Source: Herbaspirillum robiniae (GTDB lineage: Bacteria > Pseudomonadota > Gammaproteobacteria > Burkholderiales > Burkholderiaceae_D). Taken from it: a stretch of 64,000 nt of DNA. A program made the position numbers and the translations under genes. The notes beneath the pieces are model-generated. The model made no database searches. It was given only the letters and a program-made list of their open reading frames with translations, and was not told the origin of the DNA. This document shows, one piece after another, positions 10,784-35,883 of the stretch; positions within the stretch are counted from its first letter, which is position 1; every line of letters starts with the position of its first letter. The stretch covers positions 1 through 64,000 of the forward strand of contig NZ_NJGU01000001.1 in assembly GCF_002213415.1 (NCBI RefSeq), in the 5' to 3' direction.

Positions 10784-10838
10784 ATTATGCGCTCAAGTTG
10801 CGCTGCAATATCGGTTCTCGTCCTATTTCTTTGTAGGA
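10784..10838 (-). promoter_or_regulatory. Candidate activator-dependent promoter (motif copy C)
   Basis: On the minus strand TCCTAC (10838-10833) is followed after exactly 17 bases by ACCGAT (10815-10810). CATAAT (10789-10784) follows 20 bases later as a possible -10. The predicted leader to the 60-residue gene is about 100 bases. Confidence 0.5.
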
Positions 10839-10951
10839 CATACGGTAATTTACATGCTGTTTTTGCTCGCTTTGCAACAAATTGCCGGGCCCGCGCCGGG
10901 CCTCATTTGCTGCAAGGCAAAAAACGATTCCTGCCGGAAAATCGCCTGCCG

Positions 10952-11008
10952 TCCTACAGCGATAGCGGTCTGTGGCTGATGGAACCGCCGCCCCTTTCTT
11001 TCTACGAT
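10952..11008 (+). promoter_or_regulatory. Candidate activator-dependent promoter of dodecin (motif copy F)
   Basis: TCCTAC (10952-10957), 17 bases, GCTGAT (10975-10980), 22 bases, then TACGAT (11003-11008) followed by CGTCA. The spacing is the same as in copies B and E. The predicted leader to dodecin is about 110 bases. GCTGAT deviates from TCCGAT at two positions. Confidence 0.5.
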
Positions 11009-11122
11009 CGTCACAACGCGACTCAATGCAGATGACGCCGCGGATGAGGAGCGCGCCGCGCGCCATCCCGCGCGGGAAATCTTTTATATCGATGGCATAT
11101 CGATAGGCGAAAGGACCAAGCC

Positions 11123-11350
11123 ATGAGCGAACGCAAGCAGGACAATTCCAGCACCTACAAGGTGATCGAGGTGGTCGGCAGTTCCCCCAGGAGCAGCGAC
11201 GACGCGATCCGCAATGCCATCGCCGATGTGGTCAGGACGGTCAAGCACGTCGACTGGTTCGAGGTGACCGAATGCCGCGGCCATGTCGAGGGCGGCAGCA
11301 TCGCCCATTTTCAGGTCGGGCTGAAGGTCGGATTTCGCGTGGAAAGCTGA
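11123..11350 (+). CDS. Dodecin family flavin-binding protein
   Basis: The 75-residue protein carries the dodecin signature: YKVIEVVGSSPRSSDDAIRNAI, then VDWFEVTECRGHVE and a final beta strand ending GLKVGFRVES. Dodecins form hollow dodecamers that store or quench flavins in the cytoplasm; the tryptophan in VDWFEVTE stacks on the isoalloxazine ring in characterised members. AAAGGA precedes the ATG. It is monocistronic and is preceded by motif copy F. Confidence 0.93.
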   Translation: MSERKQDNSSTYKVIEVVGSSPRSSDDAIRNAIADVVRTVKHVDWFEVTECRGHVEGGSIAHFQVGLKVGFRVES

Positions 11351-12052
11351 TCTGCAGGTCGCAGCAGGCGCGAGCTCATCGGCTCGGACGCCGTGCCCCG
11401 CAAGGCCGGCGCGGCAGCGTCACTGACGAGCGATACAGGCGCGCAATGAGCCTGTGCACCACATAGCCAAGCTCAATTTGCGCACCCTCCGTTATGTTGA
11501 TTAACTGCAGGGTAAGCGCAGACTGCGGTGACGCCGGCCGGAAGGACAGAGACGGGGAATACGGCGCAAACCGCGAAGTTCGACACAGCATGGTCGCGCC
11601 CGGTGCAATGCAGCCACCAGCATGGATCGCACGCGTCGCCTGCGGGGACGCGTCGCTACGGCAGCCGGTCCGGCGCGCCGTTTTCAGGAAATGAGCGGAG
11701 TGAACCAGGAACGAAGCGGGCATGCGCATGCCGTCTTCCGTTCGCGCAGGGCCTTGGCCCGGATCGCGCAATGCCGCTTCCAGCAAGGGATTCGCTGCGA
11801 TGCAACAGTAGGATTCATCCTACGCCATGTCGGGCTGCTGTCCGATAGTGAGTGCCGTCTGGCAACCGTATAACGTCAATCATCGGCGCTCAAGCAATTT
11901 CCGTCGCATTACAAAAACATGGGACTCGATCGTCTCCCGCATCTCCGCCACGAGGATGAAGCTCGCGCGCGGCCGTGGAAGCAAGCGAAGTCTGCCGGCG
12001 ACACATCAGCGTGCTTTCCATCCAGGTGCTTTCACACATTTAGGGGACCATC
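11351..12052 (+). other. 702-base region upstream of glgA
   Basis: No open frame here has a good ribosome binding site and protein-like composition. The region contains motif copy E (11818-11874) and therefore a predicted leader of about 170 bases before glgA. In the leader, ACGAGGATGA at 11950-11959 resembles a CsrA target, and a second GGGGA overlaps the glgA ribosome binding site. Confidence 0.55.
11818..11874 (+). promoter_or_regulatory. Candidate activator-dependent promoter of the glg/tre operon (motif copy E)
   Basis: TCCTAC (11818-11823), 17 bases, TCCGAT (11841-11846), 22 bases, then TATAAC (11869-11874) followed by GTCA. TCCTAC is also the right arm of a GTAGGAT-N2-ATCCTAC dyad at 11808-11823. 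Confidence 0.6.
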
Positions 12053-13657
12053 TTGCAAGCTCGAGTTCTTTTAGTCAGCTCGGAGGCTGTGCCGCTCGTG
12101 AAGACCGGCGGCCTGGCCGACGTGATCACCGCGCTCGCGGTGTCTCTGCGCAAAGCCGGCATCGATGCCAGCATCCTCATGCCCGCCTATCCCGAAGCGG
12201 TCCGCAACCTCGGCGAAACAGTCCAGATCGGCCTGAAGAACGGCCTGCCCGGCGGCGCCGGACGTCTCTTGCGCGGGACCATCCCGGGCACCGACGTGCC
12301 GGCCCTGTTGCTGGATACGGCGCGTTTCCGCCAGCGCGGCGCCAATCCCTATCTCGACAACGACGGCGTCGAGTTCAGCGACAACGCGCTGTGTTTCGCC
12401 GACCTGTCGCATGCGGCCGTGGCCATCTGCGCCGGCGAGACCAGCCTGCAGGTGCCGCACGTGGTGCACGCCAACGACTGGCATGCCGGATTGATTCCCT
12501 GCCTGCTGAAGCTGCGCGGGCTGGACCACATCGGCACCATGCTGACCATCCACAACCTGGCCTTCCAGGGCAACTTCGACCTGCGTTCGGCCGAGCAGGT
12601 GGGCATTCCGCAGCACCTGCTGACCGGCGACGGCGTGGAGTACTGGGGCAAGCTGTCGTTCCTGAAGGCCGGCATCCGCTTCTCGGACTGCGTCTCCACC
12701 GTCAGCCGCAACTACGCGCAGGAAATCATGACGCCGCGCTTCGGCTGCGGCATGGACGGCGTGCTTTCCTTCCGCAAGCTGGACCTGCGGGCCATTCCCA
12801 ACGGCATCGACGCCGAGCTGTGGAACCCCGCCGACGATCCTCTGATCGCGCGCAACTTCAGCGTCGGCAACATGAAGGGCAAGGCCGCCTGCAAGCGCGA
12901 CCTGCAGAAGCTCTTCGGCCTGCTGCCGGCGGATCCGTTCGCGCCCGTGCTGGGCATCGGCAGTCGTATCTCGCACCAGAAGATGGCCGACGTCGTCATC
13001 GAGGCGCTGCCGGCCATCATGCAGCGTCATCCGCGCCTGCAGGTGGTGGTGCTGGGCTGCGGCGAGCGCGAGTATGAAGACGGCTTCCTGGCCCTGGCCG
13101 AGCGTTATCCGGGCCGCATCGGCGTGCATATCGGCTACGACGAGCGTCGCGCCCACGCCTTGCATGCCGGCAGCGACATGTTGCTGCACCCGACCCGTTT
13201 CGAGCCCTTCGGCCTGACCCCGATCTACGCGATGCGCTACGGCGCCATCCCCATCGGTTCACGCGTGGGCGGCCTGGTCGACACCGTGCGCGACGCCGAC
13301 CTCGATGCGGCCAATGCCACCGGCGTGCTGTTCGACGGCGAGACCGCCGCCGACATGGAAGCTGCGGTGGCGCGCGCCTTCGTCCTGTATGCCGACAACG
13401 AGCGCTGGCAGGCCGTGCAGCGCAACGCCATGAGCGTGCAGTGGGACTGGTCGGGACCGACCCAGTCGTATATCGACGCCTACGTGCATGTCGCCCAGCC
13501 CGAGGTGCGGCCGCTGTTTGCGCCGCCGCGCATCGCCGCGGCGGTGGCGGCCGAGCGCCCGGTGATCAATGCCGACCGCATGACCAATCCCGCCGCCGCC
13601 ATCGTGGCGGCCATCGCCGGCGTGGTCGGCGGATCGGCCGCAGCGGCTGCAGCTTGA
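12053..13657 (+). CDS. glgA: Glycogen synthase (ADP-glucose)
   Basis: GlgA transfers glucose from ADP-glucose onto alpha-1,4-glucan in the cytoplasm. The 534-residue GT5 glycosyltransferase has the substrate motif KTGGLADV near residue 17 and the C-terminal motif HPTRFEPFGLTPIYAMRYG near 390. The start is a TTG at 12053 with AGGGG 7 bases upstream. The family normally ends near residue 480; here an alanine-rich tail of about 50 residues follows. It heads the glg/tre cluster; glgB follows after 163 bases. The ADP-glucose source, glgC, is not in the window. Confidence 0.96.
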   Translation: MQARVLLVSSEAVPLVKTGGLADVITALAVSLRKAGIDASILMPAYPEAVRNLGETVQIGLKNGLPGGAGRLLRGTIPGTDVPALLLDTARFRQRGANPYLDNDGVEFSDNALCFADLSHAAVAICAGETSLQVPHVVHANDWHAGLIPCLLKLRGLDHIGTMLTIHNLAFQGNFDLRSAEQVGIPQHLLTGDGVEYWGKLSFLKAGIRFSDCVSTVSRNYAQEIMTPRFGCGMDGVLSFRKLDLRAIPNGIDAELWNPADDPLIARNFSVGNMKGKAACKRDLQKLFGLLPADPFAPVLGIGSRISHQKMADVVIEALPAIMQRHPRLQVVVLGCGEREYEDGFLALAERYPGRIGVHIGYDERRAHALHAGSDMLLHPTRFEPFGLTPIYAMRYGAIPIGSRVGGLVDTVRDADLDAANATGVLFDGETAADMEAAVARAFVLYADNERWQAVQRNAMSVQWDWSGPTQSYIDAYVHVAQPEVRPLFAPPRIAAAVAAERPVINADRMTNPAAAIVAAIAGVVGGSAAAAAA

Positions 13658-13820
13658 GCCGCGCCGAAGCGCTCAGCCAGGCTGCGGCGCAGGCCGCTAC
13701 AACAACACGCCGCCGTCATGATCGCCTGCCGTCAGGGGCGCCAATGATGGCGGTTTTTGCTGGCGCGTCGCCACGACGCGCGGCAGTCGATCAACAGTGA
13801 TAAGAAGAACAGGAGTTTGC

Positions 13821-16223
13821 ATGTCCGGCATGTCCGTCATGGCTTATCGTGAGACGGTGGAACAGCCGTCCACCGCCGCAAGCACGTCGCCGTCCGCCAC
13901 CGGCGGCGCGGCCCATCCCATCCCCCTGAAAAAACACGGCCTGTCCGAACAGGAAGCGGCGATGTTCGCCGCCTTGCTGGAAGGGCGGCTGAACCAGGCC
14001 TTTGCCCTGCTTGGGCCGCGCTACCTGTCCGAAGGCGAGGGCGGGGTGACCGTGATCCGCGCCTTCCATCCGGGCGCCTTGGCGGTGCGCGTCACCTGCC
14101 GCGCCACCGGCCGCCTGCTGGGCACGCTGGAGCAACTGACCGGACGCGGCGGCGAAGCGAGCGGATTTTTCGCCGGCGCCGTGGTCGGGCTGGAGCGCCG
14201 CCACGCGGTACCTTATGTGCTGGAGGTCGACTGGCGCGAGCCCGACGGCAGCGTCAGCGTGCAATCCACCGAGGATCCCTACGCCTTCGGCCTGCTGCTG
14301 GGCGAGCTCGACCTGCACCTGCTGATGGAAGGCCGCCATCGCCAGCTGGCCGATTGCCTGGGCGCGATCCCCTTGGAGATCGACGGCGTGCCCGGCACCC
14401 GCTTTGCCGTGTGGGCGCCCAACGCCGAGCGGGTCTCGGTGGTGGGCGACTTCAACCAGTGGGACGGCCGCCGTCACGTGATGCGGCTGCGCCATGAGCC
14501 GGGTGTGTGGGAGATCTTCATCCCGCGCATCGGTCCGGGCGATGTCTACAAATACGAGATCCTCGGGCGCGACGGCGTGCTGCTGCCGCTCAAGGCCGAT
14601 CCCGTGGCGCGCGCCACCGAAGTGCCGCCGGCCACCGCCTCGGTGGTGGCCAATGCGCAGCCCTACGAATGGCAGGACCAGGCATGGATGGCGCAACGCG
14701 CGCAGCGGCAGTCGACTTCGGCGCCGATGTCGATCTATGAAGTCCATCCCGCGTCATGGCGCCGGGTGCCGGAAGAGGGCTGCCGCAACCTCAGCTGGGA
14801 CGAGCTGGCCGACCAGCTCATTCCTTACGTGCAGGAGCTGGGCTTCACCCACATCGAGTTGATGCCGGTGATGGAGCATCCCTTCGGCGGCTCCTGGGGT
14901 TACCAGCCGATCAGCATGTTCGCGCCCAGCGCGCGCTTCGGCAAGCCGGAGCGCTTCGCCGCCTTCGTCGACCGTTGCCACCAGGCCGGCATCGGTGTGC
15001 TGCTGGACTGGGTACCGGCGCATTTCCCCAGCGACGAGCACGGCCTGGCGCAGTTCGACGGCACCGCGCTCTACGAGCATGCCGATCCGCGCGAAGGCTT
15101 CCACCAGGACTGGAACACCCTGATCTTCAACCTCGGCCGCAACGAGGTGCGCGGCTTCCTGATCGCCAGCGCCCTGGAGTGGCTGGAACATTTCCACGTC
15201 GACGGCCTGCGCGTGGATGCGGTGGCCTCGATGCTGTACCGCGACTACAGCCGCAAGTCCGGCGAATGGGTGCCGAACATCCACGGCGGGCGCGAGAACC
15301 TGGAGGCGGTGGCCTTCATGCGCGAGCTCAACGGCGTGGTGGCCGAGCGCTGCCCCGGCGCGCTGATGATCGCAGAGGAGTCGACCTCCTGGCCCGGCGT
15401 GACCTCCGAGATCAAGCAGGAGGGCGACCACCACGGCCTGGGCTTTTCGTACAAGTGGAACATGGGCTGGATGAACGACACGCTGCGCTACATGCAGTAC
15501 GACCCGCTGTTCCGCCGCTACCATCACCACGACATGACCTTCGGGCTGCTGTACGCGTTTTCGGAAAACTTCATCCTGCCGATCTCGCACGACGAGGTGG
15601 TGCACGGCAAGCGCTCCCTGCTCAACAAGATGCCGGGCGACGAATGGCGGCGCTTCGCCAACGTGCGGGCCTATTTCGGTTTCATGTGGGCGCATCCGGG
15701 CAAGAAGCTGCTGTTCATGGGCAGCGAGCTCGGCCAGCATGACGAGTTCGACCACGACAAATCGCCGCCCTGGCACCTGCTCGACCAACACGGCGGGCAT
15801 CCCGCCGGGCATCGCCAGCTGCGCGGCCTGGTGGCTGACCTCAACCGCCTCTATCGCGCCGAGCCGGCGCTGCACCAGCGCGACTGCCGCGCCGACGGCT
15901 TCGCCTGGGCGGTGGGCGACGACAGCGTCAACAGCGTGCTGGCCTTCTTCCGCTATGCCGACGACGGCTCGCCGCTGCTGGTGGTGTCCAACATGACGCC
16001 GGTGCCGCGCCGCAACTACCGGATCGGCGTGCCGCCGGTGGCGCCCGGCCACAACGGCATCTGGCGCGAGATCCTCAATACCGACGCCGCCGTCTACGGC
16101 GGCAGCAACGCCGGCAACATGGGTACGGTGCGTGCCGAGCCGTTCGGCTGGCACGGTCATCCGGCCTCGGTCGAACTGACGCTGCCGCCCCTGTCCACCC
16201 TGATCCTGCGCCGGGAGGGCTGA
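13821..16223 (+). CDS. glgB: 1,4-alpha-glucan branching enzyme
   Basis: GlgB cuts alpha-1,4 chains and re-attaches them as alpha-1,6 branches. The 800-residue protein has an N-terminal N1 domain, a CBM48 domain ([20 protein letters not shown], near 193) and a GH13 barrel. The nucleophile is Asp466 ([16 protein letters not shown]), the acid/base is in AEEST at 518-522, and the third acid is in [19 protein letters not shown] lies 5 bases before the ATG at 13821; an upstream ATG at 13797 lacks one. It has about 70 residues more at the N-terminus than E. coli GlgB. It is separated from glgX by one base. Confidence 0.97.
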
Positions 16224-16224
16224 G

Positions 16225-18486: not shown

Positions 18487-20342
18487 GCGCCCATTTTTCC
18501 TGGCAGTTGCCTTTTGGCGCGCAGGTGAGCGCGCCGGGCCGCGTGCGCTTTCGCACCTGGGCCCCCGGCGCCAAGACCGCCGCGGTCGAGATCGACGGCC
18601 GCGGTCGCGTGCCGATGCAGGCCGAGCCCGACGGCGAGGGCTGGTTCGCCTTGGAGACCGAGTGCGATCCCGGCACGCGCTACCGCTATGCCTTCATGTC
18701 GCAGGTCGACGGCGAGGTGCTGGTGCCCGATCCGGCTTCGCGCGGCCAGGCCGGCGACGTCTTCGATCCCAGCGTGGTGGTCGATCCGCACGCCTACCAG
18801 TGGCAATACCCGAACTGGGCCGGCCGCCCCTGGCACGAGACGGTGCTCTACGAGTTGCATCCCGGCGCGCTGGGCGGCTTCGCCGGCATCCAGCAACGCC
18901 TGCCGGAGCTGGCCGCACTGGGCATCACGGCCGTCGAGCTGATGCCGGTGGGTGAATTTCCCGGCGCCCAGAACTGGGGCTACGACGGCGTGCTGCCGTT
19001 CGCGCCCGACGCCAGCTACGGCACGCCCGAGCAGTTGAAGGCCCTGATCGACACCGCCCACGGGCTGGGCATGATGGTGTTCCTGGACGTCGTCTACAAC
19101 CACTTCGGGCCGGACGGCAACTACCTCAACAGCTATGCGCCGGCCTTCTTCCGCCACGACATGAACACCCTGTGGGGCGCGACCATCGATTTTCGCCGCC
19201 CGGAGGTGGATGATTTCTTCACCCAGAACGCGCTGTACTGGCTGCAGGAATATCGCTTCGACGGCCTGCGCTTCGATGCCGTGCACGCCATCTGCGTACC
19301 CGAGTGGCTGGCGAAGCTGGGCCGCCGCATCCGCCAGGAAACCGGCGGCCAGCGCCATGTGCACCTGGTGCTGGAGCACGACGGCAACGCCGCGCACCTG
19401 CTGGGCTTCGCGGCCGACGGCAGCGACGCGGCCGGCAGCGCCACGCACGTCTACGACGCCCAGTGGAACGACGACGCCCATCACGTGCTGCACGTACTGC
19501 TGACCGGCGAAGACGGCGGCTACTACGCCGCCTACGCCGACCGGCCGGCGGAGAAGCTGGCGCGTTGCCTGAAGGAGGGCTTCGTCTACCAGGGCGAGGT
19601 GTCGCCGTATTCCGGCGAGCCGCGCGGCGAGCCCAGCGCCGACCTGCCGCCCACGGCCTTCGTCAACTTCCTGCAGAACCACGACCAGATCGGCAACCGC
19701 GCCTTCGGCGAACGGCTCACCGTGCTGGCCCATCCGCTGGCGCTGCACGCTGCGCAGGCCTTGCTGCTGCTGGCGCCGCAGATCCCGATGCTGTTCATGG
19801 GCGAGGAGTTCGGCGCGGTCCAGCCTTTCCTGTACTTCACCAGCCACCGCGACGAAGAACTGGCGCGCGCCGTGCGCGAAGGGCGCAAGCGCGAGTTCGG
19901 GCGCTTCCCGCAGTTTTCCGATCCGGCGCTGCTGGAGAAACTGCCGGACCCGAACAGCTTTTCCACCTTCATCGCCTCGATCCCCGAACCCGGGCCAGCG
20001 CCGGAGTCGGCCGCCTGGCTCGGCCGCGTGGCGCAGCTGCTGCGCATCCGCAGCCTGCATATCGCGCCTTTCCTGCGCGGCGCGCACGCCATCGACGCGC
20101 AAGCCATCGGGCCCAAGGCGGTCAACGCGCGCTGGCTGCTGGCCGACCGCTCGGTGCTCAACATTACCGTCAACCTGGCCGAACAGGGCCTGACCGAATC
20201 GCTGGACCGGCTGGCCCATCCGGCCGGCGCCGACCTGCTGTACGACAGCGGCGGCGCGCTGGAGGGTCTGGCCGCGGGATGCTTCCCCGGCTACGCCATC
20301 CTGGCCATCCGCGAGCCGGCCGCACCCATGGGAGCAATGTGA
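18483..20342 (+). CDS. treZ: Malto-oligosyltrehalose trehalohydrolase
   Basis: TreZ releases free trehalose from the malto-oligosyltrehalose made by TreY. The 619-residue GH13 enzyme has an N-terminal CBM48-like domain (APGRVRFRTWAPGAKTAAVE), then catalytic Asp in DGLRFDAVHAI, Glu in LVLEHDGN and Asp in FLQNHDQIGNRAFGERL; the last block is characteristic of TreZ. GGGGAG lies 7 bases before the ATG at 18483, which overlaps the glgX stop as ATGA. Translational coupling along the operon is likely. Trehalose acts as an osmoprotectant and desiccation protectant. Confidence 0.95.
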   Translation: MSAHFSWQLPFGAQVSAPGRVRFRTWAPGAKTAAVEIDGRGRVPMQAEPDGEGWFALETECDPGTRYRYAFMSQVDGEVLVPDPASRGQAGDVFDPSVVVDPHAYQWQYPNWAGRPWHETVLYELHPGALGGFAGIQQRLPELAALGITAVELMPVGEFPGAQNWGYDGVLPFAPDASYGTPEQLKALIDTAHGLGMMVFLDVVYNHFGPDGNYLNSYAPAFFRHDMNTLWGATIDFRRPEVDDFFTQNALYWLQEYRFDGLRFDAVHAICVPEWLAKLGRRIRQETGGQRHVHLVLEHDGNAAHLLGFAADGSDAAGSATHVYDAQWNDDAHHVLHVLLTGEDGGYYAAYADRPAEKLARCLKEGFVYQGEVSPYSGEPRGEPSADLPPTAFVNFLQNHDQIGNRAFGERLTVLAHPLALHAAQALLLLAPQIPMLFMGEEFGAVQPFLYFTSHRDEELARAVREGRKREFGRFPQFSDPALLEKLPDPNSFSTFIASIPEPGPAPESAAWLGRVAQLLRIRSLHIAPFLRGAHAIDAQAIGPKAVNARWLLADRSVLNITVNLAEQGLTESLDRLAHPAGADLLYDSGGALEGLAAGCFPGYAILAIREPAAPMGAM

Positions 20343-25863: not shown

Positions 25864-25931
25864 AAGCGGGGCCCTGGGGCCTTGATTGTCGTGGTTTGTT
25901 GCGGATTGTTGCGTTGCGGAAATTCCTTTTT

Positions 25932-25989
25932 TCCTACAAGGAAATGGGCGGCAGTCCTATCGCATTGCGCAAGTGGGCGCCGCTACCAT
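25932..25989 (+). promoter_or_regulatory. Candidate activator-dependent promoter of pgi (motif copy A)
   Basis: TCCTAC (25932-25937), 17 bases, TCCTAT (25955-25960), 23 bases, then TACCAT (25984-25989) as possible -10. An upstream TTCCTT and the AAGGAAAT after the first box match copy B. The predicted leader to pgi is about 185 bases. The rest of the 316-base gap (25864-26179) shows nothing else clear. Confidence 0.55.
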
Positions 25990-26179: not shown

Positions 26180-27880
26180 ATGACGACTTTGCCCGCCAGC
26201 GACATCCAGTTGCCCCTCTTTATCTATGCGCAGCGCGAGCCGCTGACCGAGAAAAGCGCCTGGGTCGCGCTCGAAGAGCACCACCGGGACCGCGCCCGCC
26301 ATTTCCAGCTTGAGCGACTGTTCGCCGCCAACGACAAGCGCGGCGAGACGATGACGGCCGAAGGCGCCGGCGTCTACCTCGATTACTCCAAGAACCTCGT
26401 CACCTCCGAAACCATGGCCCTGCTGATGCAGCTGGCCCGCCAATGCGGCTTGCAAGACCGCATCGACGCCATGTTCCGCGGCGACAAGATCAACAATACC
26501 GAAGGCCGCTCGGTGCTGCATACGGCGCTGCGCCGTCCTGCCGGCGACAGCCTGATGGTCGACGGCGAAGACATCGTGGCCCAGGTGCAGGACGTGCTCG
26601 GCCGCATGGAGCAGTTCGCGCATCGCGTGCGCTCCGGCGAGTGGCTGGGTCACACCGGTCGCCCGATCCGCCACGTCGTCAACATCGGCATCGGCGGCTC
26701 CGACCTCGGCCCGATGATGGCGCACGAGGCGCTGCGCTTCTACAGCAAGCGCGACATCACCATGCACTTCCTGTCCGACGTCGACGGCGCCGCGCTGCAG
26801 GAAACGGTGCGCGCGCTGCCGGCCGAGCAGACCCTGTTCATCGTCTGCTCCAAGACCTTCACCACGCTGGAAACCATCACCAACGCCCACGCCGCCCGCC
26901 AGTGGCTGGTCTCGCAGCTGGGCGACGAGCGCGCGGTGTCGCGCCACTTCGCCGGCGTGACCACCAACATCGAGGAAGCGACCCGATTCGGCATCGACCC
27001 GGACAACATGTTCGGATTCTGGGACTGGGTCGGCGGCCGCTACTCGATGACCAGCGCGATCGGCCTGTCGACCATGATCGCCATCGGCCCGGACAATTTC
27101 CGCGAGCTGCTCGCCGGCTTCCACGCGATGGATGAGCATTTTCGCACCGCGCCGCTGGAGCGCAACCTGCCGGCCATCCTCGGCATGCTCACGGTGTGGT
27201 ACACCAACTTCTTCGGCGCCGCCAGCCAGGCGGTGCTGCCGTACAGCCAGTACCTCAAGCGCTTGCCGGCCTACCTGCAGCAACTGACCATGGAGAGCAA
27301 CGGCAAGCACATCACCGTCAACGGCGAGACCGCCGCCTACCAGACCTCGCCGGTCTACTGGGGCGACAACGGCATCAACGGCCAGCATTCGTTCTACCAG
27401 ATGCTGCACCAGGGCACGCAGCTGGTGCCGTGCGACTTCATCGGTTTCTGCCAGCCGCTGGAACAGGTGGGCGACCAGCATGAACTGCTGATGGCCAACA
27501 TGTTCGCCCAGTCGGAAGCGCTGGCCTTCGGCAAGAAGGCCGCGCAGGTGCGCGAGGAAGGCACGCCCGAAGAACTGGTGCCGCACCGCGTGTTCGACGG
27601 CAACCGTCCCAGCAACAGCATGCTGGTCGAAAAGCTCACGCCGCACAGCCTGGGCGCGCTGGTGGCGCTGTACGAGCACAGCGTGTTCACCCAGGGCGTG
27701 ATCTGGAACATCGATTCCTTCGACCAATGGGGCGTCGAACTGGGCAAGCAGCTGGCCAAGCGCACCGCGCGCCAGCTGATCGACCATAGCCAGCCGCTGC
27801 ATCACGACAGTTCCACCAACGCGCTGATCCGTCGCTTCCGCGGCGGCGGCGAGCAAACGCTGCAGGCGCGCGCCGCCTGA
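26180..27880 (+). CDS. pgi: Glucose-6-phosphate isomerase
   Basis: Pgi interconverts glucose 6-phosphate and fructose 6-phosphate in the cytoplasm. The 566-residue protein has the family length, with [16 protein letters not shown] near 170, the catalytic-region block [18 protein letters not shown] near 280 and the second signature [18 protein letters not shown] near 510. The start at 26180 has AAGGAG upstream. It follows the glg/tre operon on the same strand after 316 bases but has its own copy of the candidate promoter motif, so it can be co-regulated rather than co-transcribed. Confidence 0.97.
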
Positions 27881-27890
27881 CATCGGCCAT

Positions 27891-27935
27891 CCCGGGATAG
27901 CGCTTGCCAGCGTGACGGCAAGGCGCTTTCCCGGG
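27891..27935 (+). terminator. Long hairpin downstream of pgi
   Basis: An outer stem CCCGGGA with TCCCGGG (27891-27897 and 27929-27935) encloses an inner stem AGCGC-TTGCC with GGCAA-GGCGCT carrying one bulge. It begins 10 bases after the pgi stop. No U-run follows, so it may be a stabilising 3-prime structure rather than an intrinsic terminator. Confidence 0.5.
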
Positions 27936-28285
27936 GCCGGCCGCAAGATGATTTCCCTCCGCCGGCGCATCCAGCGCACGGCTTGACTGACTGCGTGCGC
28001 CGCATGCTGACGCAGCTCATGTTTCCTGCATCGCATTCAAAATCAGCTCATCAATAGCGCTTAATTCCCGTTGGGTGAGTTTATAATCGTCCGTAATAAT
28101 TGATTACCGGAAAGCGGCCCGCGCCGACATGCGCATGCGGGCGATAACAATAAAACAATAGCCCCGGCACGCAACACAACAGAAAAGAATGCAGCGCACG
28201 AGGGACGCCGGCGCGGCGCAATGCCGCGGCGGAACCGGTGGTCCGTGCGATCCGGACATGGTGCTTCAGAGGTGGGCGAACGCGC
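27936..28285 (+). other. Region upstream of the sensor kinase gene
   Basis: The stretch is AT-rich around 28020-28110 and contains TATAAT at 28082-28087, a likely -10 for the kinase gene, but no good -35 hexamer stands 16-18 bases before it. No coding frame is supported. Confidence 0.4.
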
Positions 28286-29890
28286 ATGAAATTACTGACC
28301 AAAGGCTTGCTGATCGTCGCAATCCCGAGCTTGTTCGAGCTGGTGCTGCTGGCCTCGCTGTTCAAGACGCAGTCCGATGCGGAAGAGGCCGAACGCTGGG
28401 CCGCGCATTCGGCGCTGGTCATGAACAAGGCGGCCGAAGTGCGCGAGCCGATGCTGCTGGAGTCGTCCCGGATCCGCAATTCGGTGATCGTCAACGATCC
28501 GGCCCCGATCAGCCGTCCGGAAATGTGGGCCGACCTGGAGATCAAGGTCGGCGAGCTTGAGCGGCTGGTCGAAGACAATGCCGAGCAGACCCGTTCCATC
28601 CTGTCGATCCGGGAAGCCATCGCGAGCTACCGCGCGTGGGCCGACAGCGCGCGCGAGCGCATGCAGAACGGCCGGCGCGACGAGCTGGTCAGGCAGCTGC
28701 ACGACGAGCAGGGGCCGCACCGGCTGGCCGATTTCCGCAGCCGCCTCAACAAGTTCATCGACACCGAGCGCAAGCTGGGCGACGAGCGCAACGAAGACCT
28801 GCAGGATGTGCGCGAGTCGCAGACCTGGCTGCTGATCGCGGCGGTGCTGGGTTCCATCGCGGCGGCCGTGATGGCGTCCTATGCGTTCACGCGCAATATC
28901 GGCACGCGCGTGGCGATCGTCACCGACAACGCGCGCCGGCTGGCCGACGGCCAGGCGCTGGCCGAGCGGGTGCGCGGCAGCGACGAGATCTCGATGCTGG
29001 ACAGCGTCCTGCACGCCACCAGCGAGCGACTCAACGACGCCAACCGGCGCGCCCAGGCGTACCGCGAGGAGATCGAGGGCCACGCGCGCGAGCTGGCCGA
29101 CGTCAACGCCCACCTGCGCCAGCAGACCCAGGACAACGAGATGTTCATCTACAGCGTCTCGCACGACCTGCGCTCGCCGCTGGTCAACCTGCAGGGCTTC
29201 AGCAAGGAGATCACGCATGCGACCAGGGACCTCGCCGCGGAAATCGACAAGCTGAACCTGGCGGAGGCCGACAAGGCGAGGATCCGCGGGATGATCGAGG
29301 ACGACATTCATACCTCGCTGCGTTTCATCCAGAATGCCGTCACGCGCTCGGCCAGCATCATCGACGCCATGCTGAGGCTGTCGCGCGCCGGCCGCGTGGA
29401 GTACCAGCCGGTGATGCTGGACATCAACGTGATGGCGCAGCGCATCGTCGACGCCATGAGCGGCAGCATCCGCGGCAAGGAGGCCGCAGTCGAGATACAG
29501 CGCGTCTTGCCGCAGGCCTGGGGCGATCCCACCGCCATCGAGCAGGTGTTCGGCAACCTGGTGGGCAACGCCGTCAATTACCTGGACCCGAAGCGCCCGG
29601 GCCGCATCGAGCTGGGCTGCCTGAGCGGCAACGGCGCGGGCACCGGCGAGGGGCTCAATACCTATTTCGTGCGCGACAACGGCCTGGGCATCCCGGCCAC
29701 GCACATGAGCAAGATGTTTACCGCGTTCCAGCGCCTGCACGGCAACGTCGCGCAGGGCGAAGGCATCGGCCTGGCGCTGGTCAAGCGGGTGGTGGAGCGC
29801 CACGGCGGCAAGATCTGGGCGGAGTCGGAAGAGGGCGTGGGCACCACCTTCTTCGTCGCGCTGCCGGCGCAGCCGCCGGGCGCGGTCTGA
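28286..29890 (+). CDS. Membrane sensor histidine kinase with CHASE3-like periplasmic domain
   Basis: The 534-residue protein has a transmembrane helix at the N-terminus (LLIVAIPSLFELVLLASLF), a helical periplasmic region of about 150 residues in the style of CHASE3, a second helix (WLLIAAVLGSIAAAVMASYAF, near 180), a HAMP-like linker, then HisKA and HATPase. The phospho-acceptor is His293 (SVSHDLRSPLVNLQGF), and the G boxes include DNGLGIP and GEGIGLALVKRVV. The start at 28286 is the first ATG before the membrane helix. It is followed after 38 bases by a single-domain response regulator, its likely partner. Signal unknown. Confidence 0.88.
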   Translation: MKLLTKGLLIVAIPSLFELVLLASLFKTQSDAEEAERWAAHSALVMNKAAEVREPMLLESSRIRNSVIVNDPAPISRPEMWADLEIKVGELERLVEDNAEQTRSILSIREAIASYRAWADSARERMQNGRRDELVRQLHDEQGPHRLADFRSRLNKFIDTERKLGDERNEDLQDVRESQTWLLIAAVLGSIAAAVMASYAFTRNIGTRVAIVTDNARRLADGQALAERVRGSDEISMLDSVLHATSERLNDANRRAQAYREEIEGHARELADVNAHLRQQTQDNEMFIYSVSHDLRSPLVNLQGFSKEITHATRDLAAEIDKLNLAEADKARIRGMIEDDIHTSLRFIQNAVTRSASIIDAMLRLSRAGRVEYQPVMLDINVMAQRIVDAMSGSIRGKEAAVEIQRVLPQAWGDPTAIEQVFGNLVGNAVNYLDPKRPGRIELGCLSGNGAGTGEGLNTYFVRDNGLGIPATHMSKMFTAFQRLHGNVAQGEGIGLALVKRVVERHGGKIWAESEEGVGTTFFVALPAQPPGAV

Positions 29891-29928
29891 ATCCGAATCC
29901 GAATCACAACACGACAAGCGGGGCAAGC

Positions 29929-30387
29929 ATGGCGACGGAACACAGTGTGAATATCATCCTGGTCGAGGACGACGATGGTCACGCTCTCCTGGTGGAGAAG
30001 AACCTGCGGCGGGCCGGGCTGGTGAACGGCTTCCTGCGGCTCAAGGACGGCCAGGAAGCGCTCGATTATTTCTTCAAGGGCGAGGGCAGCCGCTCCGACA
30101 TGCAGCAGGTGGTGGTGCTGCTGGACGTGAACATGCCCAAGGTGACCGGCATCGAGGTGCTGCGGCAGATCAAGCAGGATGCGACCACGACGTCGATCCC
30201 GGTGATCATGCTGACCACCACCGACGACCCGCGCGAGATCGAGCGCTGCTACGAATACGGCTGCAACGTCTACATCACCAAGCCGGTGGAGTACGACGAT
30301 TTCATCGAGGCGGTGCGCCGGCTGGGCTTCTTCCTGCAGGTGGTCAAGCTGCCGATGAATTCGCAGAACCAGAAGGGCGCCGCCTGA
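29929..30387 (+). CDS. Single-domain response regulator (Rcp1-like)
   Basis: The 152-residue protein is a lone receiver domain with Asp-Asp pocket (LVEDDDG), phospho-acceptor Asp66 (VVLLDVNMPKVTG), Thr in LTTTDD and Lys in ITKPVEYDDF. The insertion KGEGSRSDMQQ and the YITKPVEYDDFIEAV end are typical of Rcp1-type regulators paired with phytochromes or CHASE3 kinases. It has no output domain, so it probably passes phosphate on or acts by protein contact. It lies between two kinases on the same strand and within 5 kb of a bacteriophytochrome. It ends one base before the next start codon. Confidence 0.9.
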   Translation: MATEHSVNIILVEDDDGHALLVEKNLRRAGLVNGFLRLKDGQEALDYFFKGEGSRSDMQQVVVLLDVNMPKVTGIEVLRQIKQDATTTSIPVIMLTTTDDPREIERCYEYGCNVYITKPVEYDDFIEAVRRLGFFLQVVKLPMNSQNQKGAA

Positions 30388-30388
30388 G

Positions 30389-32398
30389 ATGAGTGAAGAA
30401 GTACGCGCGCATGTATTGATCCTGGAAGACGACGAGGGATTGCTCGCGCTCGCCAGCCGGGTGCTGAAGAAACACGGACACCGCGTGACCACGGCCGCGG
30501 AGGCCGAGGCGGCGCGCGCGGCGGTGGCGCAGGATCCGCCGGACCTGCTGATCGTCGACTACAACCTGCAGGCGCTGGACACCGGCCTGGACTTCTTCCG
30601 CAGCCTGCGCGCAAGCGGCGTGGAGATTCCCGCCATCATGGTCTCGGGCGTATCGGACGAGCCGCGCATCATCGAGGCGCTGCGCGCCGGCGTGGCCGAC
30701 GTGCTGCCCAAGACCAGCGACTATCTCGACTATCTGCCGGAGGCGGTGGACCGGCTGCTCAACCAGTTGAAGCTGCAGCGCCAGGCCGAAGAGTCGGCGC
30801 GCATGGTGCAGCAGGAGCAGTACTACCGGATGGTGTCGGAGGCGATTCCGCACCTGGTCTGGTCGTGCCTGCCGGACGGCGAATTCGATTACCTCAGCAA
30901 GCAATGGCTGGAATACACCGGCGTCGAGCTGGCGCCCCAGCTCGGCCTGCGCTGGATCGACCTGGTGGTGCATCCGGATGATCGCGCCGCCACGCGCGAG
31001 AGCCTGCTGGAGGCGGTGCGCGAGGAGCGCACGCATATCCTGGCGAAGTTCCGCCTGCGCCGCCACGACGGCCAATACCGCTGGTTCACCTGCAACGGGT
31101 CGCCGCTGCTGTGCTCGGAAGGGCACGTGCAGAAATGGCTGGGCACCTGCACCGACATCGACGACCTCAAGCGTTCCGAACATGACCGCGAGCTGCTGCT
31201 GACGGCCGAGCGGGTCGCCCGCGCCGAGGCCGAACGCATGACGCGGGTGAAGGACGAGTTCGTCGCCACCCTCTCGCATGAACTGCGCACGCCGCTCAAC
31301 GCCATCATCGGCTGGACCCAGTACCTGCTGCGCGATCCGTCGGACGGCGCCAAGCTGGAAAAGGGCCTGCAGGTGATCGAGCGCAACGCCAAGCTGCAGG
31401 CGCAGATGGTGGAAGACCTGCTGGACATGAGCCGCATCCTGTCGGGAAAACTGCGCCTGGACGTGCAGCGGGTCGACATGGCCACGGTGATCGACGACGC
31501 CATCGCCTCGGTGCAGGCGGCGGCCGACGCCAAGGAGATCCGCCTGGTCGCGGTGCTGGGCTCGGCCGGCATCATCCACGGCGATCCTTCGCGGCTGCAG
31601 CAGGTGGTCTGGAACCTGCTGATGAACGCCATCAAGTTCACCCCCAAGCAGGGGCGCGTGTCGGTTTCGCTGCGCAAGACCGGCAGCGAGGTGGAGCTGG
31701 AAATCTCCGACAACGGCCAGGGGATCAAGCCGGAATTCCTGGGCAGCGTGTTCGATCGCTTCAGCCAGGAAGACGCCAGCCTGAGCCGCGCGGCCAACGG
31801 CCTCGGCCTGGGGCTGTCGATCACGCGCCAGCTGGTCGAGCTGCACGGCGGCAGCGTGCGCGCGGCCAGCGAAGGGCAGGGGCAGGGCGCCAGTTTCTAT
31901 GTCAGCCTGCCGCTGGCGGCGGTGCAGGACGAGAGCGCCGGCGCGGTGTTCCTGCGGGAGACGGAGCCCGAGATCGAGCCCGAACTGTCGGGGCTGCATG
32001 TGCTGCTGGTGGAGGACGAGGTCGATGCGCGCGAGCTGGTGCAGCGCATCCTGGAAGAGCGCGGCGCCACCGTGGATGCGGTGGGCAGCGCCGACGAGGC
32101 GCTGGATGCCTTCCGCCATATGCGGCCCAACGTCATCGTCAGCGACATCGGCCTGCCGGGCCAGGATGGTTACGAGTTCATGCGCAGCGTGCGCGCGCTG
32201 GAAAGCAGCCAGGCCAGCGGTGCGCCGATGACGCCGGCGGCGGCGCTGACCGCGCTGGCCCGCACCGAGGATCGCAGGCGGGCCCTGATGGCAGGCTTCC
32301 AGGCCCACATCGCCAAGCCGGTCGATCCGCTGGAGCTGCTGTTCCTGATCGCCTCGTTGTCGGGACGCACCGGCAGCCGCTCGCGGCTGATCAACTGA
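30389..32398 (+). CDS. Hybrid histidine kinase, REC-PAS-HisKA-HATPase-REC
   Basis: This soluble 669-residue protein has an N-terminal receiver (5-120, Asp57 in LLIVDYNL), a PAS/PAC domain (about 145-265, HPDDRAATRE and WLGTCTDIDDLKRSE), HisKA with His297 (LSHELRTPLNAIIGW), HATPase (DNGQGIKPEF, GLGLGLSITRQLVELHGG) and a C-terminal receiver (Asp586 in VIVSDIGLPG). It starts one base after the response regulator stop, so kinase, regulator and hybrid kinase form one transcription unit and perhaps a phosphorelay. A strong bidirectional terminator follows. Confidence 0.9.
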   Translation: MSEEVRAHVLILEDDEGLLALASRVLKKHGHRVTTAAEAEAARAAVAQDPPDLLIVDYNLQALDTGLDFFRSLRASGVEIPAIMVSGVSDEPRIIEALRAGVADVLPKTSDYLDYLPEAVDRLLNQLKLQRQAEESARMVQQEQYYRMVSEAIPHLVWSCLPDGEFDYLSKQWLEYTGVELAPQLGLRWIDLVVHPDDRAATRESLLEAVREERTHILAKFRLRRHDGQYRWFTCNGSPLLCSEGHVQKWLGTCTDIDDLKRSEHDRELLLTAERVARAEAERMTRVKDEFVATLSHELRTPLNAIIGWTQYLLRDPSDGAKLEKGLQVIERNAKLQAQMVEDLLDMSRILSGKLRLDVQRVDMATVIDDAIASVQAAADAKEIRLVAVLGSAGIIHGDPSRLQQVVWNLLMNAIKFTPKQGRVSVSLRKTGSEVELEISDNGQGIKPEFLGSVFDRFSQEDASLSRAANGLGLGLSITRQLVELHGGSVRAASEGQGQGASFYVSLPLAAVQDESAGAVFLRETEPEIEPELSGLHVLLVEDEVDARELVQRILEERGATVDAVGSADEALDAFRHMRPNVIVSDIGLPGQDGYEFMRSVRALESSQASGAPMTPAAALTALARTEDRRRALMAGFQAHIAKPVDPLELLFLIASLSGRTGSRSRLIN

Positions 32399-32430
32399 GC
32401 AATGACATGTCGGTGAGGTGATCGCGCACC

Positions 32431-32466
32431 CAAGAAAAAGCCCGCTTCACGGCGGGCTTTTTCTTG
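32431..32466. terminator. Bidirectional rho-independent terminator
   Basis: A perfect 15-bp stem pairs 32431-32445 with 32452-32466 around a 6-base loop. AAAAAG and CTTTTT at the stem ends give U-runs on both strands, serving the hybrid kinase gene (plus) and the bacteriophytochrome gene (minus), which converge here. Confidence 0.92.
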
Positions 32467-32483
32467 CGCGGTCGATGCCGGGC

Positions 32484-34697
32484 TCAGCGTTCGTTGGGCT
32501 CGGCCAGCGGCAGGCTTACGGTGAAGGTGATGATGCCGTTCTCGCAGTCGACGGCGATCTTCCCGCCGTGGCCGTTGACGATCTCGCTGACGATGTACAG
32601 CCCCAGGCCCAGGCCTCGGCTGTTGCGCTGGTTGCCCAGGGATTCCTTCTTGTAGGGCTTGAACAGGTTGTTGCGCACATGCAGCGGGATCGGCGTGCCG
32701 TGGTTCGATACCGAGATGGTCAGCATGTCCTCGCGGCGGAACGCGATGATGGTGGCCGGCTTGCCGATCTCGCCGTGATGGCGGGTGTTGGAAAGCAGGT
32801 TGGAAATCACCTGGCTGATGCGGTCGCTGTCCAGGTCGAGCTCGCCGCAGTCTTCCGCCTCGAGGATGATCTCGCTGTCGGGATAGGCGGTCCGGGCTTC
32901 GCTGACGATTTCCGAGATCATCTTGTGCAGGTCGGTCTTGCGGCGCTGGATGTCCAGCCCCAGCCCGCTTTGCAGCCGGCTGATGTCCAGCACCTGCGAG
33001 ATCAGCCGGTGCATGCGGCTGCTCGAGGACGAAATGCGTTTGCTGAGGTTGGAGCTGGATGGCGATTGCTCGCGCACCTCGATCATGCGCGCGGCCATCA
33101 TGATGGCCTGCAGCGGATCGCGCAGGTCGTGGCCCAGCGTGGCCAGCAGGGTCTCGCGCGCACGCTTGACCATGTTCTCGTTGGACAGCGCGACTTCCTG
33201 CAGGTCCAGCCGCAGTTGCGCGGCCACTTCAAGTTGCGTCTTTTCCCACGGCAGGCTCTTGCCGCGCACGGTTTCCTTCCACACCGAGAAGGAGCCGCGC
33301 GGCGTCAGGCGCGGACCGAGCGGGCCGATGGTGTATTTCTTCTCCGGGTTGCCGCCCCAGCGGACGTCTTCCACCTGCTCGCTGCGGAACCAGAAGGCAT
33401 AGCCGTTCTGCTCGCGGTAGAAGCGGATCGCCAGCACGCCGCACACGTCGCCCAGCGCCGACTTCAGGTCGGGCACGTCGGCGCCCAGCGAGCTGGTGTA
33501 GAAGATGTCGCCGCTCTCGTTTTCGTTGAGCCAGTTCACCAGCGCATTGACGCCCTCGCGCGGGGGCGCCTTGCCGAAGGTCTGGGTCTTGCGGTCCAGC
33601 GAGATGGCGCCGCCGTGGCTGTTCATCAGGCGCAGGAAGCCGTGATGGTCGGCCGACAGCGACAGCACGATGTCTTCGCGGTCGGTCACCTGGGCCACGA
33701 TCTCGCGGCGCAGGGAGGCCGAGTGCTCCAGCGCGCGCGTGCGCTCACCGTTGAGGTTGCGCTCGACCAGCGTGCTCACCACCTGCGACAGCAATTGGCA
33801 GGACATGCGCACCGCATGCGGCACCAGGTGCGGCGTCATGTGGTGGCAGGCGATCAGTCCCCAGAGGCGGTCGCCGATGACGATGGACAGGCTCATCGAG
33901 GCGCCCACGCCCATGTTGCTCAGGTATTCGATGTGCACCGGCGAGACGCTGCGCAGCATGCTGTGCGAGAGGTCCAGCGGGCGGCCGGTGAGGGGATTGT
34001 GGTCGGGTTCGATCGGCACCGGCCGGTAGCCGACGTCGGCGATCAGGCGGATCGGGTTGATCACGTACAGGCGGCGCGCCTGCGCCGGGATGTCGCTGGC
34101 CGGATAGCGCTGGCCGAGGAAGGGTTCGAGGTCCGGCCGCCGGTGTTCGGCCACCACCTCGCCGCTGTCGTCGTGCAGGAAGCGATAGGCCATCACGCGG
34201 TCGAAGCCGGTGATGCGGGCGATCTCGTCCACCGCCAGCGTCAGCAGGTCTTCCACGCCTTGCTGGCGCTGGATGCGCTGGATCGCCTGGTGCGCGGCGA
34301 GCGCGAAGGAGTCGAGGCCGATGGCGTCGGGCGGGCGCTTTTCGAACTCGGCCACCAGCACGCCCTCGGACTTGTGCGTGACGACGTCGAACGGCCCCGA
34401 GGCCAGCGTCACCAGCTTCGAATCGATATAGCCGTGGCGGTCTTCCAGCGCGGCATGGATGGCGCTGCGCGCATCGGCGTTGAGGTGGCGCTCGTCCAGC
34501 GCCTGTCCGACCGCGGGCAGCGGGCCGAGAAGGTCGGTGGCGTTGCGGCTGGCGCCGGCCAGCGCGCCATCGGGGGAGAAGGTCAGCAGCGCGCCGTGCG
34601 ACTGGATGGAGCCGGGAATGTGGATCGGTTCGTGATCACAGTTGCTGAGGTCGACGTGGCGCTTGCGGCGTTCGCTCTGGTAATACGGATTGCTCAT
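32484..34697 (-). CDS. bphP: Bacteriophytochrome histidine kinase
   Basis: This 737-residue red/far-red photoreceptor kinase shows the order PAS-GAF-PHY-HisKA-HATPase. The biliverdin-attachment cysteine is Cys20 in NCDHEPIHIPGSIQSHG. The GAF domain (about 145-310) contains YPASDIPAQARRLY and the chromophore-pocket CHHMTPHLVPHAVR; the PHY tongue includes WGGNPEKKY. The phospho-acceptor is His523 (LGHDLRDPLQAIM). The start at 34697 precedes the usual short N-terminus; the frame is open to 34898 but that part is not phytochrome-like. No heme oxygenase (bphO) is adjacent, so biliverdin must come from elsewhere. It converges on the kinase-regulator-hybrid unit. Confidence 0.95.
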   Translation of the reverse strand: MSNPYYQSERRKRHVDLSNCDHEPIHIPGSIQSHGALLTFSPDGALAGASRNATDLLGPLPAVGQALDERHLNADARSAIHAALEDRHGYIDSKLVTLASGPFDVVTHKSEGVLVAEFEKRPPDAIGLDSFALAAHQAIQRIQRQQGVEDLLTLAVDEIARITGFDRVMAYRFLHDDSGEVVAEHRRPDLEPFLGQRYPASDIPAQARRLYVINPIRLIADVGYRPVPIEPDHNPLTGRPLDLSHSMLRSVSPVHIEYLSNMGVGASMSLSIVIGDRLWGLIACHHMTPHLVPHAVRMSCQLLSQVVSTLVERNLNGERTRALEHSASLRREIVAQVTDREDIVLSLSADHHGFLRLMNSHGGAISLDRKTQTFGKAPPREGVNALVNWLNENESGDIFYTSSLGADVPDLKSALGDVCGVLAIRFYREQNGYAFWFRSEQVEDVRWGGNPEKKYTIGPLGPRLTPRGSFSVWKETVRGKSLPWEKTQLEVAAQLRLDLQEVALSNENMVKRARETLLATLGHDLRDPLQAIMMAARMIEVREQSPSSSNLSKRISSSSSRMHRLISQVLDISRLQSGLGLDIQRRKTDLHKMISEIVSEARTAYPDSEIILEAEDCGELDLDSDRISQVISNLLSNTRHHGEIGKPATIIAFRREDMLTISVSNHGTPIPLHVRNNLFKPYKKESLGNQRNSRGLGLGLYIVSEIVNGHGGKIAVDCENGIITFTVSLPLAEPNER

Positions 34698-34984
34698 GCT
34701 GCGCTTCCTTCCCGAACCCCGGCGGAGGAGGTCGTCGTCGCCATGCCGCCGGCAAGGTGTGCCGCGGCCACGCCGGTGTGTGCGTGTGCAAGGAGGTCCT
34801 TGCCTTGGACTGGAGGACGCGCCTTGTGTGCTCCGGCGGATTCGCTGGTCATGGAGTGCTTGTCTTTTGGAAAAAAAGATTATAGGTGCGAGAGGCAAAT
34901 CGATGTGAGGTAATTGCCAATTAATTTCAAGAAACTGAGAAGCGATCCGGGCAGTATCGCTAGCGCGCGGGAACTTCCTTTTTG
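34698..34984. other. Upstream region of bphP
   Basis: The stretch contains a GCAAGGA-N2-TCCTTGC palindrome at 34788-34803 about 90 bases before bphP, which could be an operator, and an A-rich run near 34870. No coding frame is supported. Confidence 0.4.
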
Positions 34985-35041
34985 TCCTACAAGGAAATAC
35001 GGCAGCGTCCGATATGACTCATCAATGCCACATCCTATGAT
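34985..35041 (+). promoter_or_regulatory. Candidate activator-dependent promoter of two small genes (motif copy B)
   Basis: TCCTAC (34985-34990), 17 bases, TCCGAT (35008-35013), 22 bases, then TATGAT (35036-35041) followed by CGTCA. This is the best copy of the motif. The predicted leader to the gene at 35258 is about 210 bases. Confidence 0.65.
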
Positions 35042-35257
35042 CGTCAGGCTTGCAAAAAGATCGCCGTGAGACAACGGCGAGCCGTCAATTTGACGTGCGT
35101 AGAACGAACTTGCAGACGTGATTGGCTCAAGATGTTTTGGGGCAATATCGCGTCGAAATTCCGTTCAAACAAAGTCCGCCTAAACGATGGAGTTTGGCTA
35201 AAATAAAAATCGTCGGCGACCGCGGGCGCATCGAAAACGCATTCGGGAGTGAGGACT

Positions 35258-35431
35258 ATGCTGTCGATGAAACACAAGGAAAAAATCGATCGCAGCTTCG
35301 ACGGATCCACCAACCTGGTGGACCGCTGGAAGCAGGAGCGGGAATTGCGGCGCGCCGCAGACGAATCCGGCAAACGCATTGCCAAGGATGGCCGCCGCGA
35401 GGAGCGCAGCCGGCCAGTTTTGGAACTTTGA
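35258..35431 (+). CDS. Small charged hypothetical protein, 57 residues
   Basis: The protein is rich in lysine, arginine, glutamate and aspartate (MLSMKHKEKIDRSFDGST start) with no signal peptide or membrane helix. GGGAG lies 8 bases before the ATG; a GTG at 35249 and ATG at 35267 are alternatives. I recognise no family. It lies 12 bases before the next gene and both follow motif copy B, so they are probably one transcription unit. Confidence 0.6.
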   Translation: MLSMKHKEKIDRSFDGSTNLVDRWKQERELRRAADESGKRIAKDGRREERSRPVLEL

Positions 35432-35443
35432 CGAGGTAGCATC

Positions 35444-35833
35444 ATGGATAAGTCCGATACCGCACATTCGTCCGAGGGCAGCAGCATTTCCATCCAGCAG
35501 GGCGACTGGGATGCCTATCGCAGCCACATCGACAACCACGCGGCGCCGCTGCCCGGCTCGCACAGGCCGGTCGACGAGGGCGAGGAAGACAACCGCGTCG
35601 ACCTCGGCGAACCGCCCAGCGATTCCTCCGGCCAGCCGCTCAACGGCGAGGACGACATCCTCGCCTATCGCCGCCAGTGCGCGCGCGCCTACATCGGCAT
35701 GAACGGCCGCCTGGGCGGACGCGCATATCACGCCAACGAGCCGGTGATCCTCACGCAGGAGGCCGTCAATGAGCTGGCCGAGCTCAATCGCATCCTGCGG
35801 GAAGAACGCCTGCAAAAAAAGAAGACCCGCTGA
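35444..35833 (+). CDS. Hypothetical acidic hydrophilic protein, 129 residues
   Basis: The N-terminal 70 residues are acidic and probably disordered (EDNRVDLGEPPSDSSGQPL). The C-terminal 55 residues form a more ordered part containing RRQCARAYIGMNGRLGGRAY and a charged helix ending RILREERLQKKKTR. There is no signal peptide or known domain. It is translated just downstream of the 57-residue gene. A minus-strand copy of the TCCTAC motif (35855-35883) points into its 3-prime end, raising the possibility of antisense transcription. Confidence 0.7.
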   Translation: MDKSDTAHSSEGSSISIQQGDWDAYRSHIDNHAAPLPGSHRPVDEGEEDNRVDLGEPPSDSSGQPLNGEDDILAYRRQCARAYIGMNGRLGGRAYHANEPVILTQEAVNELAELNRILREERLQKKKTR

Positions 35834-35854
35834 TTTCCTGCGTGCCGCGCGCAT

Positions 35855-35883
35855 GTCGGATGAGTGCTCAAAGCCTTGTAGGA
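35855..35883 (-). promoter_or_regulatory. TCCTAC-N17-TCCGAC motif without a -10 (motif copy D)
   Basis: On the minus strand TCCTAC (35883-35878) and TCCGAC (35860-35855) are again exactly 17 bases apart, with the same upstream AACTTCCT. No -10-like hexamer stands at the expected place and no minus-strand gene follows. It may be a decayed promoter, a pure binding site, or an antisense start. Confidence 0.4.

Follow-up and report, generated by a model that had tools for sequence, protein, structure and literature searches.

A tandem-site promoter element before stress and glycogen genes of Herbaspirillum and related bacteria, and a GacA-like response regulator as its probable reader

Results

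Motif copies and genes in the window

The window analysed here is a stretch of 64,000 nucleotides of Herbaspirillum robiniae. It carries the genes for dodecin, glycogen synthase (glgA) and phosphoglucose isomerase (pgi), several small open reading frames, and six copies of a bipartite motif in which TCCTAC is followed after 17 bases by a second box (Table 1). The copies had been described in an earlier note on this DNA. On re-reading of the window sequence their coordinates, strands, N17 spacing and second boxes were all reproduced, and their position between genes agrees with the layout of the window. The -10-like hexamers which the note had placed 22 bases after the second box in three copies, and after 23 and 20 bases in copies 25932 and 10838, are likewise present. 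Copy 35883 was searched for a -10 box as well and has none; it points at the final part of the small gene before it, not toward the kinase gene that follows. The second box of copy 10952 is weak. Genes were called with our own codon-bias script and targets were assigned by position after a motif copy. Pfam confirmed glgA, pgi and dodecin as downstream genes.

Table 1. Motif copies in the window and the genes assigned to them
Feature	Span	Strand	First box	Second box	-10 element	Remarks
Copy 10838	10784..10838	-	10838-10833 TCCTAC	10815-10810 ACCGAT	10789-10784 CATAAT (20 bases)	E 0.005, 32.5 bits
Dodecin copy (10952)	10952..11008	+	10952-10957 TCCTAC	10975-10980 GCTGAT	11003-11008 TACGAT (22 bases)	18.3 bits
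glgA copy (11818)	11807..11874	+	11818-11823 TCCTAC	11841-11846 TCCGAT	11869-11874 TATAAC (22 bases)	Complete dyad GTAGG-N6-CCTAC at 11808-11823 (+); exact two-box match before glgA in 4/4 congeners examined
pgi copy (25932)	25932..25989	+	25932-25937 TCCTAC	25955-25960 TCCTAT	25984-25989 TACCAT (23 bases)	
Copy 34985	34985..35041	+	34985-34990 TCCTAC	35008-35013 TCCGAT	35036-35041 TATGAT (22 bases)	Strongest copy; E 5e-9, 49.5 bits
Copy 35883	35855..35883	-	35883-35878 TCCTAC	35860-35855 TCCGAC	none	
Small open frame after copy 10838	10492..10785	-				Pfam: no family; true start probably internal; possible target
Dodecin	11123..11350	+				PF07311; likely target
glgA, glycogen synthase	12053..13657	+				Starch synthase catalytic domain PF08323, 209 bits; likely target
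pgi, phosphoglucose isomerase	26180..27880	+				PF00342; likely target
Two small genes after copy 34985	35261..35833	+				35261-35431 (56 aa), 35444-35833 (129 aa); Pfam: no family; likely targets

Around copies 34985 and 35883 lies a signalling cluster (28238-40052) which encodes a CHASE3 kinase, a PAS kinase with two receivers, a bacteriophytochrome kinase (32484-34898, minus strand) and a multi-PAS hybrid kinase of 1341 residues. This kinase cluster could feed RR1, the response regulator described below.

Scans of the window, the genome and the order

A matrix of 50 columns was made from 82 copies of the family, among them the three exact copies of the window but not the other three. Applied to the window, it returned exactly the six known copies at 18.3-49.5 bits and no further match at 6 bits or more, and five samples drawn from a first-order Markov model of the window yielded a single match, at 7.0. 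Since this matrix contains three of the copies that it recovers, a model of 45 copies from other genera, none of them from the window's genus, is the fairer test. The 45 were drawn from 49 copies preselected for A and T in the -10 columns and for at most 80% likeness to one another. This independent model recovered five of the six window copies (34985, 25932, 11818 and 35883 at E 5e-9 to 5e-5, and 10838 at 0.005) and missed copy 10952. In the whole genome it found 16 places at E <0.05 and 22 at E <1, and four of the 16 fall in the window, which is 1.2% of the genome.

The earlier note had proposed to scan the whole genome and related genomes. Allowing one mismatch at most, the pattern matched 25 times in 5.53 Mb as against 4 times for the reversed pattern; the exact form TCCTAC-N17-TCCKAT matched 12 times as against none. 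Several of the 25 matches (L009, L014, L015, L019 and L020) lie inside coding genes with the mismatch mostly in box 1 and look like chance. In the window's family 72 of 116 genomes have matches, with up to 17 copies in one genome. Order-wide, 58 of 399 genomes have a match, and three or more copies are found in the window's own family only.

Candidate targets

Outside the window, motif copies of the genome precede genes for a YeaQ-like Transgly_assoc protein followed by phosphoglucomutase, a DUF2383 protein, a PQ-loop protein, an AI-2E family transporter, a beta-barrel porin-like protein and a second CsbD-like protein (the last below the Pfam cut-off); a TPP enzyme comes from the one-mismatch list alone. 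In relatives the targets include Ku, KGG, RecQ-like helicase, LiaF-like and Transgly_assoc proteins and kinases, and a YflT-like protein below the cut-off. They belong to stress, repair and storage types, and the general-stress and glycogen-type targets support the stress or carbon-storage regulon that had been suggested from the window alone. The motif is a real promoter element before stress and glycogen genes of Herbaspirillum and related bacteria.

In one relative (L095, G412) the motif stands before a Ku gene, with a ligase-like open frame coming after Ku, and the regulon may thus include end-joining repair. Four genomes of genera without RR1 (L034, L036, L038, L071) have a divergent pair of motifs about 50 bases apart, one copy of which aims at the RecQ-like helicase gene. 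In the window's own genome a weak model match (L316, G000:C28:208533-208595, minus strand, E 0.34) lies before the gene of an RsbRD_N-STAS protein, a stressosome-type part.

RR1 and its gene neighbourhood

The genome has 16 places with a GerE domain, and RR1 is encoded at one of them. RR1 matches NarL-type NCBIfam models and solved NarL-family structures over its full length, and in its orthologue from genus g2 both Response_reg and GerE are among the Pfam matches listed, the receiver and GerE composition of the NarL/FixJ family. The RR1 sequence is 100% identical to proteins of Herbaspirillum huttiense and H. aquaticum. For RR1, as for the paralogue RR3 treated below, the best NCBIfam model is UvrY/SirA/GacA (PRK09483), with 169.2 bits for RR1 and 152.7 bits for RR3. 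The cut-off of this model is 280 bits, so RR1 is not a GacA/UvrY equivalog. BvgA and EvgA had been our first idea for the regulator and were given up, the GacA/UvrY model outscoring EvgA. BvgA is absent from the 25 NCBIfam models listed for RR1.

RR1 lies in a row of genes encoding a ferritin-like protein, a CsbD-like protein, a small protein, a BON protein, RR1, a receiver and a HisKA_3 kinase. The kinases that adjoin RR1 and RR3 both carry HisKA_3 and HATPase_c domains and are their putative partners. Motif copies occur upstream of the RR1 row in Herbaspirillum and in genus g2, in the latter directly before CsbD in a similar row. Thirty of the 36 RR1 loci were read, and 21 have a matrix match of at least 14, including four that held training copies (L118, L119, L121, L195); the other nine have none. 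Eight of the 21 matches are on the same strand and at most 3.5 kb upstream, six are weaker and upstream near -1.2 kb, four are divergent at -300 to -400, and three are downstream only. The weak sites near -1.2 kb belong to loci L183, L184, L187, L188, L192 and L193, and in L183 the intervening gene encodes a sigma-54 activator-type protein. None of 13 paralogue loci has a match of at least 14; as four of these are RR3 loci, RR3 is not autoregulated via the motif.

Motif copies accompany RR1 or RR3

Orthologues of RR1, at about 75% or more, are found in 36 of the 116 family genomes, the next matches being at 50% or less. RR3, which was picked after the fact by its DNA-binding helix, is found in 24 genomes, all without RR1; it is 93-100% identical within its class and 44% identical to RR1. 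With kinship among the genomes ignored, the motif is present in 35 of the 36 RR1 genomes (mean 4.83 copies) and 23 of the 24 RR3 genomes (mean 4.71), so that genomes with either regulator have a mean of 4.8 copies and the others 0.3, the level of the control; for the 53 genomes without RR1, RR3 or an RR3-like protein the figures are 12 with the motif, a mean of 0.28, and 0.34 for the reversed control. Genomes with RR3-like proteins of 57-75% have the motif in two of three cases (mean 1.0). Genera with a mean of at least one copy make up 20 of the 21 with RR1 or RR3 and 4 of the 23 with neither, and motif genera without RR1 mostly carry RR3.

Within genera the picture is mixed. In genus g169 the one genome without RR1 has no copy and the four with RR1 have 3-4; in genus g2 the genome without RR1, of only 1.7 Mb, has none; in genera g182, g190 and g195 the motif is no different between genomes with and without RR1. 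One genome has RR1 without the motif (G455) and one RR3 without it (G431), and a genome with an RR3-like protein (G327, 75%) lacks it too. Outside the family a single RR1-like protein was found among the 399 genomes of the order (G030, 59%), in a genome without the motif.

The presence of the motif thus follows that of a GacA-like two-component response regulator, and RR1, a NarL-family regulator nearest to the UvrY/GacA models, is the best candidate for the reader and most likely the reader in Herbaspirillum. It is nevertheless conceivable, if unlikely, that the same promoter class is read by another regulator with a GacA-type helix and that RR1 is just a frequent member of the regulon or of the same clades. 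The co-occurrence counts ignore phylogeny, and there are other regulators to choose from. RR2 is commoner in motif genomes (mean copies 3.59 in genomes with it and 0.88 in those without, kinship ignored); the helix STYR, common to RR1 and RR3, recurs in the protein L107 of the same genome and in the RR3-like protein of G327; and in G424 a different NarL-type regulator adjoins the motif. Against RR2 speak the 27 genomes that have it but neither RR1 nor RR3, with a mean of only 0.56 copies, the 9 of 10 genomes with RR1 and no RR2 that bear the motif, and its helix, in which the T of RR1 and RR3 is replaced by M or E. Orthologues of the L107 protein are confined to 13 of the 116 genomes (p 0.14). 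On co-occurrence in these genomes, both RR2 and the L107 protein fit worse than RR1 and RR3.

Anatomy of the site

In an ungapped alignment of 52 family copies, several columns outside the search pattern are conserved, namely A7 (40 copies), G17 (43), G23 (39), A53 (42) and T57 (38). A box TAnnAT follows box 2 mostly at exactly 22 bases, and since A53 and T57 were not part of the search this spacing can be taken as the rule. The repeat period is 23 bp and box 2, judged from the -10 box, lies at about -40 to -35, so that the two sites are two helical turns apart and reach the -35 region as in promoters of the BvgA type. The fixed N17 and the fixed distance to TAnnAT thus support the earlier reading of the motif as two sites of a class II activator.

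Each box is one half-site, the stronger (CCTACA), of an imperfect palindrome of the GacA kind, TGTAGG-N6-CCTACA. When the arm TGTAGG was scored along 92 copies, its best upstream offset was -10, which is N6 before the CCTACA of site 1; at offset 13, 23 bases further on and before site 2, it ranks first or second. In family loci, many of which were fetched for the motif, a spacer of 6 gives 11 dyads with at least 11 of 12 matches and other spacers 0-2. The arms are otherwise weak, and of the six window copies that of glgA is the only one with both arms complete. In 71 loci, mostly of distant relatives, 9 dyads had at least 11 of 12 matches, where 59 permuted half-sites averaged 0.86 (maximum 8), and 44 had at least 10 of 12, the permuted average being 15.4 (maximum 76). 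This last search carries no weight, because a spacer of 7 was there as frequent as one of 6 at 11 or more matches and the permuted maxima are high. A hairpin in copies 25932 and 34985 (TTCCT...AAGGAA) was also considered and was rejected by eye, its arms being absent from most copies.

Two hexamers 17 bases apart in front of stress-type genes might themselves be the -35 and -10 boxes of an alternative sigma factor. Such an arrangement would leave no place for a further conserved -10 box, and this reading is rejected as very improbable because the unsearched TAnnAT box is conserved at a fixed 22 bases. Moreover, the two boxes are direct repeats, the first with a palindromic arm, and the motif tracks response regulators across genomes.

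Conservation at orthologous genes

Exact matches are found before glgA, pgi and the small gene after copy 34985 in all four other Herbaspirillum genomes sampled, and the flanks of these orthologous promoters have diverged. The boxes are invariant in 35 of 36 columns, which is true by construction as the loci were fetched with the exact pattern; independent evidence of conservation comes from the recurrence at the same genes and from the -10 columns, 14 of 18 of which are invariant as compared to 79 of 276 flanking columns. The degenerate copies and the one copy without a -10 box might suggest a mobile or repetitive intergenic element, or a chance pattern, without regulatory role. This reading can be dismissed on account of this recurrence despite diverged flanks, the variation of the sequence around the boxes from copy to copy, the near-zero reversed-pattern controls and an Rfam scan of the 64-kb window that returned no family.

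The weaker window copies are conserved in part. Counterparts of the dodecin copy, with GCCGAT as second box, stand before dodecin in G470 and G487, and the stretches read from G178 and G449 contain neither dodecin nor its copy. The counterparts of copy 35883 are weak, at 20.3 bits in G449 and 10.9 bits in G487, and in G178 and G470 none reaches 10 bits. The row of two small genes after copy 34985 occurs also in G178 and G487.

Discussion

We propose, with a probability of roughly 0.7, that the motif is the activator site of a class of stress and carbon-storage promoters which is read by RR1 in Herbaspirillum and by RR3 in genera without RR1. The site would consist of two palindromes, spaced by 23 bp and lying on one side of the helix, with a -10 box of the sigma-70/sigma-S type downstream. 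Given a transcription start some seven bases beyond this -10 box, the centres of the palindromes would be near -42 and -65. As to signal, phosphorylation, binding and activation, we infer the following. Stress would be sensed by the adjoining HisKA_3 kinase, RR1 would be phosphorylated, and two RR1 dimers would bind side by side, 23 bp apart. The nearer dimer would contact or recruit RNA polymerase where the -35 region is poor, as is described for BvgA. In motif genera without RR1, RR3 would read the same sites.

Among known systems, GacA/UvrY is close in several respects. According to PMC3171408, the GacA/UvrY box is TGTAAG-N6-CTTACA and GacA acts mainly through small RNA genes. RR1 belongs to the same NarL family, and its presumed half-site CCTACA is one base off CTTACA at the same N6; the geometry therefore agrees, whereas the half-site differs. 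In contrast to GacA, tandem sites are found here at many protein genes. BarA and GacS are hybrid kinases, unlike the HisKA_3-type kinase that adjoins RR1.

The arrangement of the sites resembles that of BvgA from Bordetella. In PMC7250471, BvgA is described as binding in NarL-family dimers to tandem sites 22 bp apart from centre to centre, as compared to 23 bp here, the nearest site abutting a poor -35 region. BvgA differs, however, in that it governs a virulence regulon and in its primary fha half-site, which is contained in TAAGAAATTTCCTA (PMC7250471). EvgA and RcsB are likewise NarL-family regulators of stress genes and can be recognised by sequence as relatives of RR1, but RR1 scores lower with their models, at 96.6 and 83.3 bits, far below the cut-offs. 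The general-stress regulons of RpoS, SigB and PhyR-EcfG are run by sigma factors. They share the types of target (CsbD-like, dodecin, YeaQ-like, KGG and glycogen genes), whereas what the promoters have in common here is an activator site with an ordinary -10 box. The literature covered, mainly titles and abstracts of openly available papers, holds no description of the motif or the regulon.

RR1 and RR3, which are 44% identical, never occur together in the 116 genomes. A more tentative idea, to which we give somewhat less than even odds, is that the family runs its general-stress response on a direct GacA-like switch in which the strongly diverged regulators RR1 and RR3 have been swapped under a constant promoter code. 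If the proposal is true, it supplies a promoter code, a likely regulator, a likely kinase and a list of targets, and thereby a testable regulon of stress survival and glycogen storage for the family including Herbaspirillum and Noviherbaspirillum. It would also present a GacA-like regulator that acts directly on many stress genes, and perhaps a regulator swap under one cis code.

In Caballeronia and Paraburkholderia, which have an RR1-like regulator (52-55%), dyads like GTCGG-N6-CCTAC recur at some 1.3-1.5 kb and 3 kb upstream of the gene for it (L219-L238), as if site and regulator were older than the family.
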